DNA from: a virus
Direction: 5' to 3' (one strand)
DNA: 28,551 nt
IMG/VR virus record: IMGVR_UViG_3300029319_000287
Location: 2,679 to 31,229 of that record
Shown piece after piece: positions 1-16,165 of the stretch (position 1 is its first letter; every line of letters starts with the position of its first letter). The position numbers and the translations under genes are program-made. The notes under the pieces were generated by a model. The model worked only from the letters and a program-made list of their open reading frames with translations. It was not told where the DNA came from and did not search any database.

Positions 1-463
1 GAGCAAGCACGGAGTCGTCGCCTTCATACATCAAACCTTCTCTTAAGTTGGGGTATAAGTCATCAACATCGCCCGGATCGTCCGGTCCCATTCCAATTCC
101 TCGGTCGGCATAACCTGATCTCATCTTAAGAGCGGCGATACGGTCTTGACCCAAACGAGCATTCCTTGCTCGTTCTTCCGCATCTTCGGCATCAAGTCTA
201 TCTTGGTAACGTTGTTCTCTCTCGGCTCTTTCGGCTTCCGCTGATGCTAACTCTTCGTCAGTATAGAACTGAGATTTGTCGAGGTTTTTCATGTCCTCGT
301 ATGCCTTTGTCAGTTCCTCTTCTGTGGCCTTACCTTGCGCTCTGAGCTCCTTAACACGGAAAAATTCGTCGCGAAGAATCTTCTCGGCTTCCATCTGTTG
401 GAGGATTCCTTCCTTTATGACTTCTTTGATCGCATTTGTTAGTTTCAATTTAGTTAATTTCAT
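1..463 (-). CDS. Leader-tagged charged coiled-coil protein, 3' end beyond window
   Basis: This reading frame is open from an ATG at 463-461 to the window edge (154 full codons), so the C-terminus is missing. AGGAG lies 6 nt before the ATG and fixes the start. The first residues, MKLTKLKLTNAIKEVIKE, follow the same pattern as the neighbouring genes, and I-K-E|G at residues 16-19 fits a T4-type prohead protease site. After the leader the protein is almost all charged helix (E/R/K/A-rich, about residues 25-110), likely coiled coil, then a Gly/Asp/Pro-rich stretch. It is the last visible gene of the leader-tagged cluster (3280-1), 9 nt after the preceding stop. I recognise no enzyme domain. By its leader and context I infer a head-internal or scaffold-like protein. 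Confidence 0.75.
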   Translation of the reverse strand, partial: MKLTKLKLTNAIKEVIKEGILQQMEAEKILRDEFFRVKELRAQGKATEEELTKAYEDMKNLDKSQFYTDEELASAEAERAEREQRYQDRLDAEDAEERARNARLGQDRIAALKMRSGYADRGIGMGPDDPGDVDDLYPNLREGLMYEGDDSVLA

Positions 464-472
464 TTCTTTCTC

Positions 473-1153
473 CTAATGGTGTTTACTAGCTGTTTCTAGA
501 AACTTTAGTGCGGCAGGAACCACGCCAGCATATTCAGTAGTTTCAAAAGCCTTAATTGCTGTTGTAATCGCTTCAATAGTCAGTTCTAATCCGTGTCCAG
601 CTGCTTTTCCAGCAGTAATTGTCCCGAGACCCATTGAGACACCGGCTATTGCGACACACACCAATAACATGATAAATAAGATTTCTGTTATCTCATCCTC
701 TTGTTCTTTGGGCATCTCTTCTCCGCCAAGTTTTGCCAATAGTTTTATTGGTTTTACAACAGAATACCTAATTATATTTAGATAAGCCGAGTGAATAAAG
801 TTTCCAAGGTCACTAGTAAGAAGTTGAACCATTTCATCTAGTTGTAATTTACCTATAACGCCTACTTTATCAGCTATAAACTTATAGACTTTTTCTTGTG
901 AAAGAAAAGTCTTAGCAGCCTTGCCCATCCATTGGAGGACCTTCGGGAAAGCTAGGGCTGCTGCAAATAGCAAGAGGCCTCCAGCCTCTTGTAGCACATC
1001 TTCTTCGCCTTTTGTAGCCTTCATCTCTTTCGCTTTGGGAATAAGATCTTTGATGTCAATTGGTGGTAATGCTGAGCTTAACGAGGCTTCAAGTAAGATG
1101 TTTTGATACTCATCATTAATTAATTGCTTCAATCTTGCTTCAGTTAATCTCAT
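473..1153 (-). CDS. Leader-tagged hydrophobic protein, putative internal virion/membrane protein
   Basis: A 226-residue protein whose first 22 residues (MRLTEARLKQLINDEY, then QNILLE) match the shared leader; L-L-E|A at 20-23 is a good prohead-protease-like site. The mature part has two hydrophobic segments: about residues 58-76 (GGLLLFAAALAF region) and about 155-180 (ILFIMLLVCVAIAGVSMG), the second long enough to span a membrane. The start is the ATG preceded by AGAGGAAAG; it overlaps the upstream stop by 4 nt, so the genes are translationally coupled. The family is unknown to me. A membrane-active cargo protein packaged in the head and released at infection is an inference from leader plus hydrophobicity; a lysis or membrane role cannot be excluded. 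Confidence 0.75.
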   Translation of the reverse strand: MRLTEARLKQLINDEYQNILLEASLSSALPPIDIKDLIPKAKEMKATKGEEDVLQEAGGLLLFAAALAFPKVLQWMGKAAKTFLSQEKVYKFIADKVGVIGKLQLDEMVQLLTSDLGNFIHSAYLNIIRYSVVKPIKLLAKLGGEEMPKEQEDEITEILFIMLLVCVAIAGVSMGLGTITAGKAAGHGLELTIEAITTAIKAFETTEYAGVVPAALKFLETASKHH

Positions 1154-1605
1154 TTTTTCTTTCCTCTTTTTTTTGGTTTTGTGCTCACGTTTTTAGCCTT
1201 ACCTTTTCTATTGGGGTTTGGATCCTCTTTTCGCTTTCTTCTTGCGGCACTTTCTTTTTCTTTCTTCGACATTGAAGCTGCTTTTTCTGGTGAGGCGCAT
1301 TTTGGCTTTGTCTTCTGACCAGGCTGTTTTGCACAAGGTTTTCCATCATACTTTCCACCGATTTGCTCCCATCCTTTTTGGCCATCGCCGTCTGCATCAT
1401 CAAACCAATCTTTAAGACCTTCTTCATCCAACTGATCATTATCTAGGTTCTCTTCAGCTTTGACACAGTTCCGATATGTTTTCCCAAACATCTCTTTAGT
1501 TTTCTGTGTGTCATGGGTTTTGTAACCCTTTTGACACCTTTCGTATAATACCGCATCAATTTCTTCTTTGATAATCTGTTGTAGATCTTCTCTAGTAACT
1601 TTCAT
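1150..1605 (-). CDS. Leader-tagged small basic Cys-containing protein, putative head-internal protein
   Basis: A 151-residue protein. Residues 1-23 are the shared leader (MKVTREDLQQIIKEEIDAVL, then Y-E), with L-Y-E as candidate cleavage site. Next comes a module beginning at Cys24 (CQKGYKTHDTQ) and ending in an F-G-K-x-Y-x-N-C motif about 24 residues later. A Trp/Gly/Cys segment (IGGKYDGKPCAKQPGQKTK) follows. The last 45 residues are strongly basic (RRKRKEDPNPNRKGKAK). Basic tails like this suit DNA or RNA contact inside a capsid. I have the impression that such modules recur in aquatic phage proteins, but I cannot name the family. An ACTATTTA motif lies 21 nt upstream and GAGGG precedes the ATG. 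Confidence 0.75.
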   Translation of the reverse strand: MKVTREDLQQIIKEEIDAVLYERCQKGYKTHDTQKTKEMFGKTYRNCVKAEENLDNDQLDEEGLKDWFDDADGDGQKGWEQIGGKYDGKPCAKQPGQKTKPKCASPEKAASMSKKEKESAARRKRKEDPNPNRKGKAKNVSTKPKKRGKKK

Positions 1606-1626
1606 AATAGACCCTCGTGTTGGAAC

Positions 1627-1634
1627 TAAATAGT
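1627..1634 (-). promoter_or_regulatory. Candidate late promoter element ACTATTTA
   Basis: On the coding strand ACTATTTA lies 21 nt before the ATG of the 1150-1605 gene, inside the 32-nt gap after the GNAT-like gene. The same octamer occurs upstream of three other leader-tagged genes. Its spacing would suit a -10-like box with a short leader that holds the ribosome site. Confidence 0.45.
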
Positions 1635-1637
1635 GTT

Positions 1638-2768
1638 TTATTTCTTCTTTTTATTCATTGAGGCTGTCTTTCTTTTGGACGCTTCTTTTCTTTTCTCGGC
1701 ATATTCATAAGCCTTCTTGAGCCTTGCTTTTACTTTTGGATCTTTAGCATTCTTGTAGGCTGCTCTAGACCTCTGATGTATTAAGTTGATAATTTGTGAT
1801 TGACGCTTGTGAGACTTTGATTTAAAGCTTGCCTTTGATAGAGTGTCTTTGATGTCTTGGACTGTGGAGAACTTGACCGAAACAGTGTCGCTTGGATCTT
1901 CATCAGTATATAGTCTTCGGCCAGATCCTGCAGGTTTCTTGCCCGTCCCTGTCTTTGGATCTCCCTCAGCGACTCTCTTAGCGTTTGCTGTAGCGATTGG
2001 GTAAATGTCTTCATCAGACATTCTTGGATTGTCTCTTTTCATTGCCTTTGCGATCTCGCCTTTCTTCTTATATTCAGCGTCGGTTAGTTTTCTTTCTTTC
2101 AAACCGCCTGTTTGTTTTATCATTAAATAAATGTTATTTTTAGGTGCACCTGCTTTAGTATAGACACCATCAGTGATCGAGGGAAGTTGTTTTTTTGTTT
2201 TGACATCGATAGCAACTACATTATATCTTCTCGCGAGATAGTTTTGCCATAAAGATTTGGACTCAGGTGTTTGAGAGTCCCCAGAATACAAATTGTTATT
2301 TGCTATAACATATTTATAAATCGTTGATGCTACCCCTTTACCTTTGGCCTCGGGCTTTACTGATACGGTGTTCACTTTTACACCGTCCATAAATGGGGCG
2401 ATAGACATATACCCAGCTGGTTGCTCGTCGGTATAAGCTATAATTTTGGTGTGATCTCCTGAAGGTGCAACTAATAATTTTACACCTCTGTTTCCAAATT
2501 CAAATTTATCTTGAGAAACTTGCTCGGCTTTTCCTGTTGCCCAATTTACATCAACTTGTTCGTCTGCACCTAGAGACCCTCTTAGTTCTATTTCATTAAC
2601 GCTGAGTGCTTCCATCTTCATATACCATTTTGAGTTAGGTCCTTCCGGATCTCCATACCCTCCATCGTAATGCCAGTCTGGTTCGTTCCAGTGATACCTC
2701 TTCGCCTCTAAAACTGCTTCAAGCTCTTCTAGAATGATACGCTGTAAATCTTCTCTGGTGAGGTTCAT
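1638..2768 (-). CDS. Leader-tagged protein with GNAT-like acetyltransferase domain and basic tail
   Basis: A 376-residue protein. Residues 1-21 are the shared leader (MNLTREDLQRIILEELEAVL), ending near A-V-L-E|A. From about residue 90 to 215 there is a GNAT-like fold: a strand ending VNTVSVKPEAKGKGVASTIY, that is V-x-P-x-x-K-G-K-G-V-A-S, resembles the acetyl-CoA pyrophosphate loop (Q/R-x-x-G-x-G/A), followed by a helix. A segment with M-K-R-D-N-P-R-M-S-D-E-D follows at about 240-265. The last 60 residues are Lys/Arg-rich (KARLKKAYEYAEKRKEASKR), suggesting nucleic acid binding. The start overlaps the previous stop as TAATG. A possible role is acetylation of a host or phage protein after delivery from the head; the substrate is unknown and the catalytic residues are unverified. 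Confidence 0.7.
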   Translation of the reverse strand: MNLTREDLQRIILEELEAVLEAKRYHWNEPDWHYDGGYGDPEGPNSKWYMKMEALSVNEIELRGSLGADEQVDVNWATGKAEQVSQDKFEFGNRGVKLLVAPSGDHTKIIAYTDEQPAGYMSIAPFMDGVKVNTVSVKPEAKGKGVASTIYKYVIANNNLYSGDSQTPESKSLWQNYLARRYNVVAIDVKTKKQLPSITDGVYTKAGAPKNNIYLMIKQTGGLKERKLTDAEYKKKGEIAKAMKRDNPRMSDEDIYPIATANAKRVAEGDPKTGTGKKPAGSGRRLYTDEDPSDTVSVKFSTVQDIKDTLSKASFKSKSHKRQSQIINLIHQRSRAAYKNAKDPKVKARLKKAYEYAEKRKEASKRKTASMNKKKK

Positions 2769-3280
2769 TATTTTTCTACTTTAACTTCTTCATCATCTGA
2801 GAGAATATAATCACCATCGTCGTGTTGTCCTACGTTTGGCATTTCCTCTAGAGCTTTTTCAATCTCTTTTTCCATGCCTTTACCAAACTCTTTTGTGAAT
2901 GGTTCCATACCAGCGGCTCCACCTTCGTCGCGCAGAATCTTTTCAATCTTCTTGGGATCGACATGAACAAATCCTTTGCCAGCCATATCGACATGGTCAG
3001 CCTCAACTTCTGCTTTGTGTTTGTCGCCAGTCTCAGGATCATACATGTCATGCTTTTCAAACTCTTCTTCTAAACCTTCTTTTTTTGATTTGTTGCCCCA
3101 GTTCTTGGCTCCAACCTTACGACATTTAACAAGGGCCCCAGAGGCATAAGCGGATGGCCACACATCGTATCGTGCTTTCACCTTATGATAGCAAGCATCC
3201 TTCTTACCTTTTTTCTCAGAAAGGACAGCATCAAGCTCTTCTTTAATGATTTGTTTAAGTTCCTTGTTTGTAAGTTTCAT
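2768..3280 (-). CDS. Leader-tagged protein with Cys/Trp module, putative head-internal protein
   Basis: A 170-residue protein if started at the ATG at 3280, which has GGGG 6 nt upstream; an in-frame TTG four codons earlier is less likely. Residues 1-22 are the shared leader (MKLTNKELKQIIKEELDAVL, then S-E) with L-S-E as candidate cleavage site. A compact module follows (CYHKVKARYDVWPSAYASGA to K-C-R-K-V-G-A): two Cys 23 residues apart around a W-P-S-A-Y motif. I believe this module recurs in phage proteins, but I cannot name it. The C-terminal half is acidic (E/D about 35%). It is the first gene of the leader cluster; an ACTATTTA motif lies 22 nt upstream. A packaged structural or cargo protein is inferred. 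Confidence 0.75.
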   Translation of the reverse strand: MKLTNKELKQIIKEELDAVLSEKKGKKDACYHKVKARYDVWPSAYASGALVKCRKVGAKNWGNKSKKEGLEEEFEKHDMYDPETGDKHKAEVEADHVDMAGKGFVHVDPKKIEKILRDEGGAAGMEPFTKEFGKGMEKEIEKALEEMPNVGQHDDGDYILSDDEEVKVEK

Positions 3281-3302: not shown

Positions 3303-3310
3303 TAAATAGT
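3303..3310 (-). promoter_or_regulatory. Candidate late promoter element ACTATTTA
   Basis: Coding-strand ACTATTTA lies in the 40-nt gap between the J-domain gene stop and the first leader-cluster gene, 22 nt before its ATG. The surrounding CTATTTATAG is palindromic, so the opposite strand reads TATAAATA, the T4 late consensus, but facing away from the gene. Confidence 0.45.
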
Positions 3311-7125: not shown

Positions 7126-7722
7126 TTATCTCTCATCTTCGTAAAGTGGGATCCCAAATCTTTTTCCAACTTTAGAATCAGGACCACTTTGTCCTGCTTT
7201 TGGTATGTATGAGTAGTCAGATGGGACACCCTGCATAAGTTGGTTGTCCATGACTTGTGAAACCTGATGGGAATCGGGGTCTCTTCTAAAACCCATCTCA
7301 TTTTCATAGTCGATTGAGAACATGGTGAACACCATCTTATCATTACCTTCTTCAATTGTAATCTTTTCACCCCAAACAAAACCCCATTGTTTGAATTGTC
7401 TGTTTAGTTCGTCGACGACACCTTTGTCAGGTGGGTTTATAAGCATTATTGATTGTTCAAAAATGCCCATAAAATTTCCGCCAATACGAATAAACTTAAT
7501 TCCTCTCGCTTTTGCGGCCTTCTCTAGATCTCTTTTGAGATATTCGTTGTCTAAGGCTGTTGCTTGTTTGGCCATTGGATTTTGTCCGGACATGATAGCA
7601 ATTGTGTCAATGTTGGGGTCTTCACCTCTAAGTATTGACATTACCCTGTCGTATTTTGACATTCTGGCTTCGTCAATAACTTCCACTATTAACTGCTCTA
7701 ATTTGTTTTTAGTTAATCTCAT
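7126..7722 (-). CDS. Leader-tagged protein with DUF3293-like domain
   Basis: A 198-residue protein from the ATG at 7722, chosen because GGAG lies just upstream and because this start places the shared leader (MRLTKNKLEQLIVEVIDE|A) at the N-terminus; a longer in-frame start would read through the GroES-like gene. I-D-E|A at 16-19 is a candidate cleavage site. Residues about 41-122 show S-G-Q-N-P-M, an Asn at 59, F-E-Q-S (88-91) and a final Q-F-K-Q-W-G-F-V-W-G-E; this order resembles DUF3293 (N-P, N, E-x-S, F-Q-x-A blocks), which I offer only tentatively. The gene overlaps the GroES-like stop by 14 nt. An ACTATTTA motif lies 38 nt upstream inside that gene. Confidence 0.65.
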   Translation of the reverse strand: MRLTKNKLEQLIVEVIDEARMSKYDRVMSILRGEDPNIDTIAIMSGQNPMAKQATALDNEYLKRDLEKAAKARGIKFIRIGGNFMGIFEQSIMLINPPDKGVVDELNRQFKQWGFVWGEKITIEEGNDKMVFTMFSIDYENEMGFRRDPDSHQVSQVMDNQLMQGVPSDYSYIPKAGQSGPDSKVGKRFGIPLYEDER

Positions 7723-7996
7723 TCTCCAATCTCCCGTAGACGTAATTTTCTTGAACAAGGTAAATAGTCTCCAAATTCGCTTTTATTTCTTGAAGTGTGG
7801 TTCTATCTACAACAATTACATCACCCGGATTAAGATTTATTGAACAATCCTCGGCTAGCGAAACAATCTCGCAAATAGCATAAGGCTGCTTGGGTGGCTT
7901 ATAGTCATCGGGCATAACAAACAAAGGATCTTCCTTGCTTATCTCTTTTTCTCGGAGCTCCACCAAGATGTGCCTATTGTATGGTTTAAAATTCAT
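7709..7996 (-). CDS. GroES/gp31-like co-chaperonin
   Basis: A 95-residue protein, the size of GroES (97). It opens MNFKPYNRHILVEL, the equivalent of GroES 'MNIRPLHDRVIVK', then has a flexible loop region (about 18-32), a strand ICEIVSLAED (like G-E-V-L-A-V-G), NLNPGDVIVVDRT (like V-G-D-x-V-I-F) and a closing strand TIYLVQENYVYGRL (like L-I-M-x-E-x-D-I-L-A). Such phage co-chaperonins cap host GroEL, often to fold the major capsid protein. The mobile loop is short and the tail extends beyond the usual end. It is the first gene of a nine-gene overlapping operon and has its own promoter at 8031-8059. GGAGG lies 4 nt before the ATG. Confidence 0.8.
   Translation of the reverse strand: MNFKPYNRHILVELREKEISKEDPLFVMPDDYKPPKQPYAICEIVSLAEDCSINLNPGDVIVVDRTTLQEIKANLETIYLVQENYVYGRLENEIN
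7761..7768 (-). promoter_or_regulatory. Candidate late promoter element ACTATTTA (intragenic)
   Basis: Coding-strand ACTATTTA lies within the GroES-like gene, 38 nt before the ATG of the leader-tagged 7126-7722 gene. It is the only one of the four copies with a longer spacing, so it is the least certain. Confidence 0.3.
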
Positions 7997-13346: not shown

Positions 13347-13700
13347 TTATAAACTCTTTCTACTGAATTTATTTTTCATTCTTTTTAGCAATTGCTCAGG
13401 GTTGCGATAAAATGGAACATGGTATTTTGATGCGTAAGGTCTCATCGCACGATCAAGCCTAGACAACTCCGCTAAATCTTTATCAATCAAATTATCAATT
13501 TCGGTTGCTTCTTCCCAAGTTTTTGATTGGGGATAAGCTTTTTGTAAAGCATCCAAGCTTTCCTCTACCGCTAAATACTGATTGACAAGTTCTTCTACTT
13601 CTACGATGGCTTGTTGTAACTGCTTTGTTTGTGCTGAGGAGAGGTTAGATTTTATTTCATCCAAAATCATTTGTTTTAGTTTTGCTTCTGTTAGTTTCAT
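13347..13700 (-). CDS. Leader-tagged helical protein, isolated gene
   Basis: A 117-residue protein from the ATG at 13700 (GGAG upstream); five in-frame codons before it lack a good ribosome site. The N-terminus MKLTEAKLKQMILDEI is nearly the same as MRLTEARLKQLINDEY of the 473-1153 gene, although the rest is unrelated. L-D-E at 13-15 could be a cleavage site; the later L-S-S lacks the Glu. The remainder is helical coiled coil (AIVEVEELVNQYLAVEESLD region) with a basic end (LLKRMKNKFSRKSL). It sits alone between a terminator upstream and a host-type promoter downstream and has its own ACTATTTA motif, which suggests expression at a different time from its neighbours. Function unknown. Confidence 0.72.
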   Translation of the reverse strand: MKLTEAKLKQMILDEIKSNLSSAQTKQLQQAIVEVEELVNQYLAVEESLDALQKAYPQSKTWEEATEIDNLIDKDLAELSRLDRAMRPYASKYHVPFYRNPEQLLKRMKNKFSRKSL

Positions 13701-13721: not shown

Positions 13722-13729
13722 TAAATAGT
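13722..13729 (-). promoter_or_regulatory. Candidate late promoter element ACTATTTA
   Basis: Coding-strand ACTATTTA lies 21 nt upstream of the ATG of the isolated leader-tagged gene and just after the uvsX terminator. Because the gene is cut off upstream by that terminator, it needs its own promoter, and this is the only candidate seen. Confidence 0.5.
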
Positions 13730-16091: not shown

Positions 16092-16165
16092 TACACTTGA
16101 TAGGATTCGAACCTATGACCGTCCGCTTAGAAGGCGGATGCTCTATCCAGCTGAGCTACAAGTGC
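16092..16165 (-). tRNA. tRNA-Arg (anticodon UCU)
   Basis: A 74-base cloverleaf. Acceptor GCACTTG pairs with CAAGTGT (first pair G-U), D-arm GCTC...GAGC, anticodon stem TCCGC/GCGGA around loop CTTCTAA with anticodon TCT, T-arm ATAGG-TTCGAAT-CCTAT, discriminator A. CCA is not encoded. It reads AGA/AGG, codons frequent in these AT-rich genes, so it likely supplements a host with few such tRNAs. It is probably cut from the transcript of the WYL_2-like gene 43 nt upstream. Confidence 0.95.

Follow-up and report, generated by a model that had tools for sequence, protein, structure and literature searches.

A shared N-terminal leader on unrelated proteins of an uncultured marine T4-like phage as a probable cleavable capsid-targeting peptide

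The stretch of DNA analysed here (28,551 nucleotides, hereafter the window) spans positions 2679-31229 of the virus record IMGVR_UViG_3300029319_000287, which is 31,229 bases long and comes from an uncultured marine T4-like phage. Seven of the window's proteins begin with the same leader of ~22 residues, very probably a cleavable tag that targets proteins to a T4-type head. The proposal of the initial annotation that this leader loads proteins into the head is largely supported, by a T4 gp21-type protease in relatives, a sharp leader end, [LIV]xE motifs at cargo edges, a neighbourhood of head genes, a common promoter-like motif and homologous cargo in the virions of a cultured phage. Given targeting to the head, injection of the cargo is moderately probable, and we further infer scaffold binding, cleavage and functions of the cargo in the host.

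The genes of the seven proteins start at 463, 1153, 1605, 2768, 3280, 7722 and 13700, all on the minus strand, and stand among ThyX, RNR and RecA genes. The common pattern is M-K-[LIV]-T-x3-L-x-Q-x-I-x-E-E, and the wider consensus is MKxTKxxLKQIIKEELxxVLxE. A leader is present at every one of these starts, as had been read; the exact pattern first given is matched by 6 of 35 genes and by none of the composition-matched random N-termini (2000 trials), while the seventh protein, 2768, departs from it at position 10 (R instead of Q/N). Pfam and PHROGs bear out the description of the bodies behind the leader as unrelated; only 1605 and 3280 have a match in common, to separate parts of the phrog_727 profile. 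The leader is not restricted to 1-3280: genes with it also lie further along the window, and the record holds three more immediately before the window begins (at 775, 1695 and 2309 of L001). The variant leader noted on gene 6220 does form a separate, aromatic, T4-like class. In the lines below, a bar marks the predicted cut.

410-463, minus strand: leader of gene 463, residues 1-18, MKLTKLKLTNAIKEVIKE|G, cut predicted at IKE|G
1088-1153, minus strand: leader of gene 1153 (hydrophobic protein), residues 1-22, ending LLE|A
1540-1605, minus strand: leader of gene 1605, residues 1-22, ending VLYE|R; other leaders of this cargo mostly end in [LIV]xE
2706-2768, minus strand: leader of gene 2768, residues 1-21, ending VLE|A
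3215-3280, minus strand: leader of gene 3280, residues 1-22, ending VLSE|K; residues 5-22 are predicted to form a separate helix
6170-6220, minus strand: aromatic leader of gene 6220, resembling the T4 capsid-targeting sequence (CTS), MKMKKILKEWRKFVITE|G
7669-7722, minus strand: leader of gene 7722, residues 1-18, ending IDE|A; in five orthologs the cargo edge still reads E|A
13638-13700, minus strand: leader of gene 13700 (coiled coil), residues 1-21

The putative cleavage sites proposed earlier are found as read (463 IKE|G, 1153 LLE|A, 1605 LYE|R, 3280 LSE|K, 7722 IDE|A and 6220 ITE|G), and that predicted for gene 2768 is V-L-E|A. The ortholog of 6220 in L005 begins MMKKILNEWKKYLKE|G, and the aromatic class (MKLIMENWxKF...) also occurs in head regions of relatives.

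Peptidase S77, the family of the T4 gp21 prohead protease, was found in 18 of 29 leader-selected records, as against 2/31 viral records drawn at random (Fisher p = 5e-6), a comparison which, like the other S77 counts, is not corrected for phage kinship. It occurs in 10 of the 12 leader-selected records of at least 98 kb, in 11/14 records found via gene 1605 and in 7/9 large records found via gene 2768. The syntenic relatives G001 and G003 encode it, as do G086, in which the leader of gene 13700 is unchanged, the relative G005 and the phage S-CREM2. The initial annotation suggested looking for a gp21-like protease elsewhere in the genome; one is found in relatives, and none was observed in the window's own 31-kb record. 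That record is only a fragment and showed no head module, which accounts for the unseen protease, and G084, a very close relative by RecA (94.5%), is likewise a fragment without S77. The S77-negative leader records tested also yielded no Gp23 capsid protein, and none of them held an S78 protease as a substitute; with both lacking, they look like fragments without a head module.

The spread of the leader was followed by scanning a degenerate DNA pattern over viral contigs, with proteins taken from loci among the matches listed, to which the following counts refer. At least 293 distinct leader proteins occur in many marine viral contigs, and the 286 of at least 60 amino acids fall into 209 body clusters, of which 187 are singletons. 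Large records have up to 12 leader matches each, and 1/31 random viral records has any. As a control for circularity, leaders were picked on residues 1-10 alone, excluding matches to the DNA pattern; I11-I12-x-E14-E15 was still conserved, and 96% of these leaders had [ILV]12-x-E14. Conservation, measured as information, drops to background after about residue 22. An AlphaFold model of 3280 (mean pLDDT 78) places the leader helix (residues 5-22) apart from a confident C-terminal fold, with a break at 23-25 (pLDDT <50). A fold search with this model gave no significant match (best E 2.1), and the model of 7722 (pLDDT 43) was too poor and was not used. The core peptides of the leader were not found in the literature text searched, and a short-peptide tblastn against cultured phages, an insensitive method, returned one weak match only.

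Cargo that swaps leaders is the strongest evidence for the predicted cut site. The cargo segments concerned are the following.

1153-1536, minus strand: cargo of gene 1605, Cys/basic modules B (1450-1536) and A (1153-1422), phrog_727
1641-1961, minus strand: C-terminal basic module E of gene 2768 (DPKxGTGKKP...)
1965-1973, minus strand: predicted internal protease site V-A-E|G ahead of the C-terminal module of gene 2768
2304-2456, minus strand: GNAT-like acetyltransferase segment of gene 2768, Pfam PF00583
3080-3205, minus strand: cargo module C of gene 3280 (KKDACYHKVKxRYxVWPSAYASGALVKCRKVGA)

Module E is 66-91% identical across 28 viral loci whose N-terminal parts differ. In relatives it directly follows about ten different short leaders, nearly all of which finish with [LIV]-x-E on the module edge or close to it (for example MYLTRRNLRSLILESISEILSE|, MNILLESYIKEILLNE|, MNNLESYILEVLLYE| and MNSSLLLELYVKEALLSE|), and this C-terminal module of 2768 also occurs there as a stand-alone protein immediately after a leader. 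The same cargo domains are found behind quite different leaders, including NWRxFLxE and the T4-like MKTYKEFILE, and most of these leaders have [LIV]-x-E where the cargo begins; module B of gene 1605 sits after MKTYKEFILE|, a T4-type tag, in L022 and L016. Within the 12 residues ahead of the module, [LIV]xE is present in 30/38 cases for module A, 15/23 for module B and 30/48 for module C, compared with 11.1, 7.9 and 15.4 in shuffles, and [LI]xE lies at residues 18-30 in 60% of leaders versus 15-17% in control windows. The ortholog of gene 1153 in L316 (86% identical) keeps both the leader and E22, and the leader of gene 13700 is identical in L317 and L318, where the whole protein is only ~40% identical. 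The GNAT-like domain noted from the sequence was recovered by Pfam in 2768 (PF00583, 22.0 bits against a cut-off of 20.7).

The leader could instead be a helix that docks proteins to the scaffold or another part of the virion and is retained uncleaved. Its conserved core (residues 1-16) is longer than the shortest T4 tags, which have ten residues, and no clear [LI]xE or [LIV]xE directly follows the core in ~30-40% of leaders, 13700 among them. Such docking is nevertheless unlikely, given that [LIV]xE is kept at cargo edges even with wholly different leaders, that the 7722 ortholog in L262 retains E|A at the cargo edge despite a 5-residue insertion before it, and that [ILV]-x-E lies inside the core of 96% of leaders.

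In relatives, leader genes are interspersed with terminase, portal, S77 and scaffold genes, the names of which rest partly on reading of the sequences; S77 and Gp23 were assigned by profile matches. The S77 gene of G086 is directly flanked on either side by leader genes, which also adjoin portal and terminase. A promoter-like motif, ACTATTTA, occurs four times in the window, always with a leader gene starting 28-45 bases downstream.

1627-1634, minus strand: ACTATTTA promoter-like motif ahead of leader gene 1605
3303-3310, minus strand: ACTATTTA promoter-like motif ahead of leader gene 3280
7761-7768, minus strand: ACTATTTA promoter-like motif ahead of leader gene 7722
13722-13729, minus strand: ACTATTTA promoter-like motif ahead of leader gene 13700

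The motif was first noticed in the window, so that its count there is no independent test and the relatives serve as one. In twelve of their head regions it stands ahead of 29/288 open reading frames in the sense orientation and 0 in antisense, and its targets include scaffold-like genes (seven phages) and tail sheath genes. We infer that it is a structural-gene promoter. The sequence CTATTTA, counted upstream of all leader genes, occurs 18 times in sense versus once in antisense. The T4 late promoter TATAAATA was also looked for upstream of leader genes and was found in 0/287 in sense. A second recurring upstream stretch of leader genes consists of GATTGCGATACTAAGTATG-like 7-mers, ~6-14 fold over background.

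The position of the window's leader genes among ThyX, RNR and RecA genes, together with a protease association that lacks phylogenetic correction, would suit a leader that docks proteins to a non-virion partner (replisome, membrane or host target), with the T4-like distribution due to common descent only. The interleaving, in relatives, of leader genes with those for terminase, portal and protease, a promoter-like motif common to leader, scaffold and sheath genes, and the presence of homologous cargo in virions make this very improbable. The motifs common to the upstream regions also allow a third explanation, in which the leader is an N-terminal cassette spread by recombination for a translation or promoter benefit, with no function as protein. 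This is extremely unlikely in view of the 7722 orthologs, whose leaders are less conserved than their cargo (67% versus 84% identity) yet invariant at the motif positions, and of the leader-like copies without a start codon that lie between modules of composite proteins.

A link between the cargo and the virion is provided by S-CREM2, whose gp160 (128342-129235) has homologues of modules A, B and C fused and joined by LEE|K and ISE|G. Mass spectrometry of virions purified on CsCl identified 7 unique peptides of this protein, a coverage of 13.1% (PMC10665884 Table 3). Several points weigh against a cleaved leader of the head. Contamination of the virions by abundant proteins is possible according to the S-CREM2 authors (PMC10665884), and the S-CREM2 genome has no clear match to the leader class, so the virion datum bears on the cargo and not on the leader. 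The sole site of gene 13700, L-D-E|I, is located within the leader core. The hydrophobic moment of the leader is not above that of shuffles, and amphipathicity was therefore not used as evidence. The leaders without an adjoining site, the uncorrected kinship of the phages and the window's own record, with neither head genes nor protease observed, are to be counted here as well.

The T4 CTS has the sequence MKTYQEFIxE. By inspection, the window leader has no recognisable match to it, and only 6220 and some genes of relatives resemble the T4 form. The leader is predicted to work like the T4 CTS but is not the T4 CTS sequence, and is a putative new, expanded class of cleavable capsid-import signal apart from that peptide. 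The T4 CTS is carried by internal proteins and cleaved by gp21, and IPI is injected (PMC3012670, PMC5694885). Similar to the CTS of IPI-IPIII and Alt, the window leader is a short tag at the N-terminus of otherwise unrelated proteins, has [I/L]-x-E at its end, belongs to a phage group with an S77-family protease and precedes cargo that varies highly between phages (PMC3012670, PMC5694885). The T4 propeptides have 10-20 residues compared with ~22 here, and the consensus differs; also unlike T4, the class has up to 12 matches per genome and its cargo is often composite, with several predicted cut sites. The inner-head propeptides of phiKZ and SPN3US are N-terminal and cut by a T4-related prohead protease, as proposed here (PMC5694885), but are often >100 residues long and involve protease family S80 and an A/S-x-E motif. 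SPN3US gp53 and gp54 have an identical 15-residue start (PMC5694885), which joins paralogs, whereas the window leader joins unrelated cargos. The cyanophage phrog_727 proteins (Syn9 gp114, P-SSM2 PSSM2_123 and S-CREM2 gp160) contain the cargo modules of 1605 and 3280 with [LIV]xE or similar ahead of them, as in the window; they differ in having the modules in one polypeptide with no clear leader-class match, and are annotated as hypothetical. In L214-L225 and L320, the gene directly downstream of S77, or close to that position, encodes a conserved head-region protein that begins MKKxELKKxLKPLVKECIKEVLFEEG; this start resembles the leader and ends LFE|EG, and the protein is possibly a core protein and the source of the leader.

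As a capsid-targeting peptide, the leader suggests a model of cargo delivery. Late in infection, the N-terminal helix of each leader protein would bind the prohead core (scaffold), and the S77 prohead protease would cut after [I/L/V]-x-E at the edge between leader and cargo, and in composite cargos also at further such sites between modules. The freed cargo would remain in the head with the DNA and probably enter the next host along with it. More tentatively, the data may point to a widespread, unnamed capsid-import code of marine T4-like phages, in which one exchangeable leader class would deliver hundreds of cargo families to hosts, including protease-cut polyproteins and preproteins whose Tat or lipoprotein signal would reach the N-terminus only through cleavage, possibly for dispatch to the host envelope. 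The leader and the [LIV]xE edge together give a searchable list of candidate virion-delivered effectors predicted to be head-loaded, as well as a handle on what uncultured marine phages may inject with their DNA, and the leader is a possible new packaging tag for engineered capsids.

Among leader proteins elsewhere, the cargo features pentapeptide repeats, leucine-rich repeats and an L,D-transpeptidase domain. Immediately behind the leader, L316 4146-4676 has a Tat signal (Pfam, above cut-off); by eye, a Tat-plus-lipobox-like segment follows the leader in L233 2170-3339 and a Sec-like segment in L146 8605-9129. Leader cleavage would expose such signals, internal start codons being the alternative. 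The composite proteins of L232, L235, L250 and L255 have several [LIV]xE junctions and module E fused to kinase-like segments, a weak similarity (PF00069 below cut-off in three, none in L250). Another composite, L248 1600-3336, has an HEAGH zinc-peptidase-like motif before modules B and E and no Pfam match.

Gene 463 (window 1-463; L001 2322-3141) extends into a short N run of the record. Because a single gene of the relative L316 (2692-3147) has the same C-terminal part (EGDDSVLALFEDA...AEYQGRKVTLNKP) as the 463 region, gene 463 and the next open reading frame are probably one gene across an assembly gap. The window also contains a tRNA-Arg(tct) gene at 16092-16165 on the minus strand.

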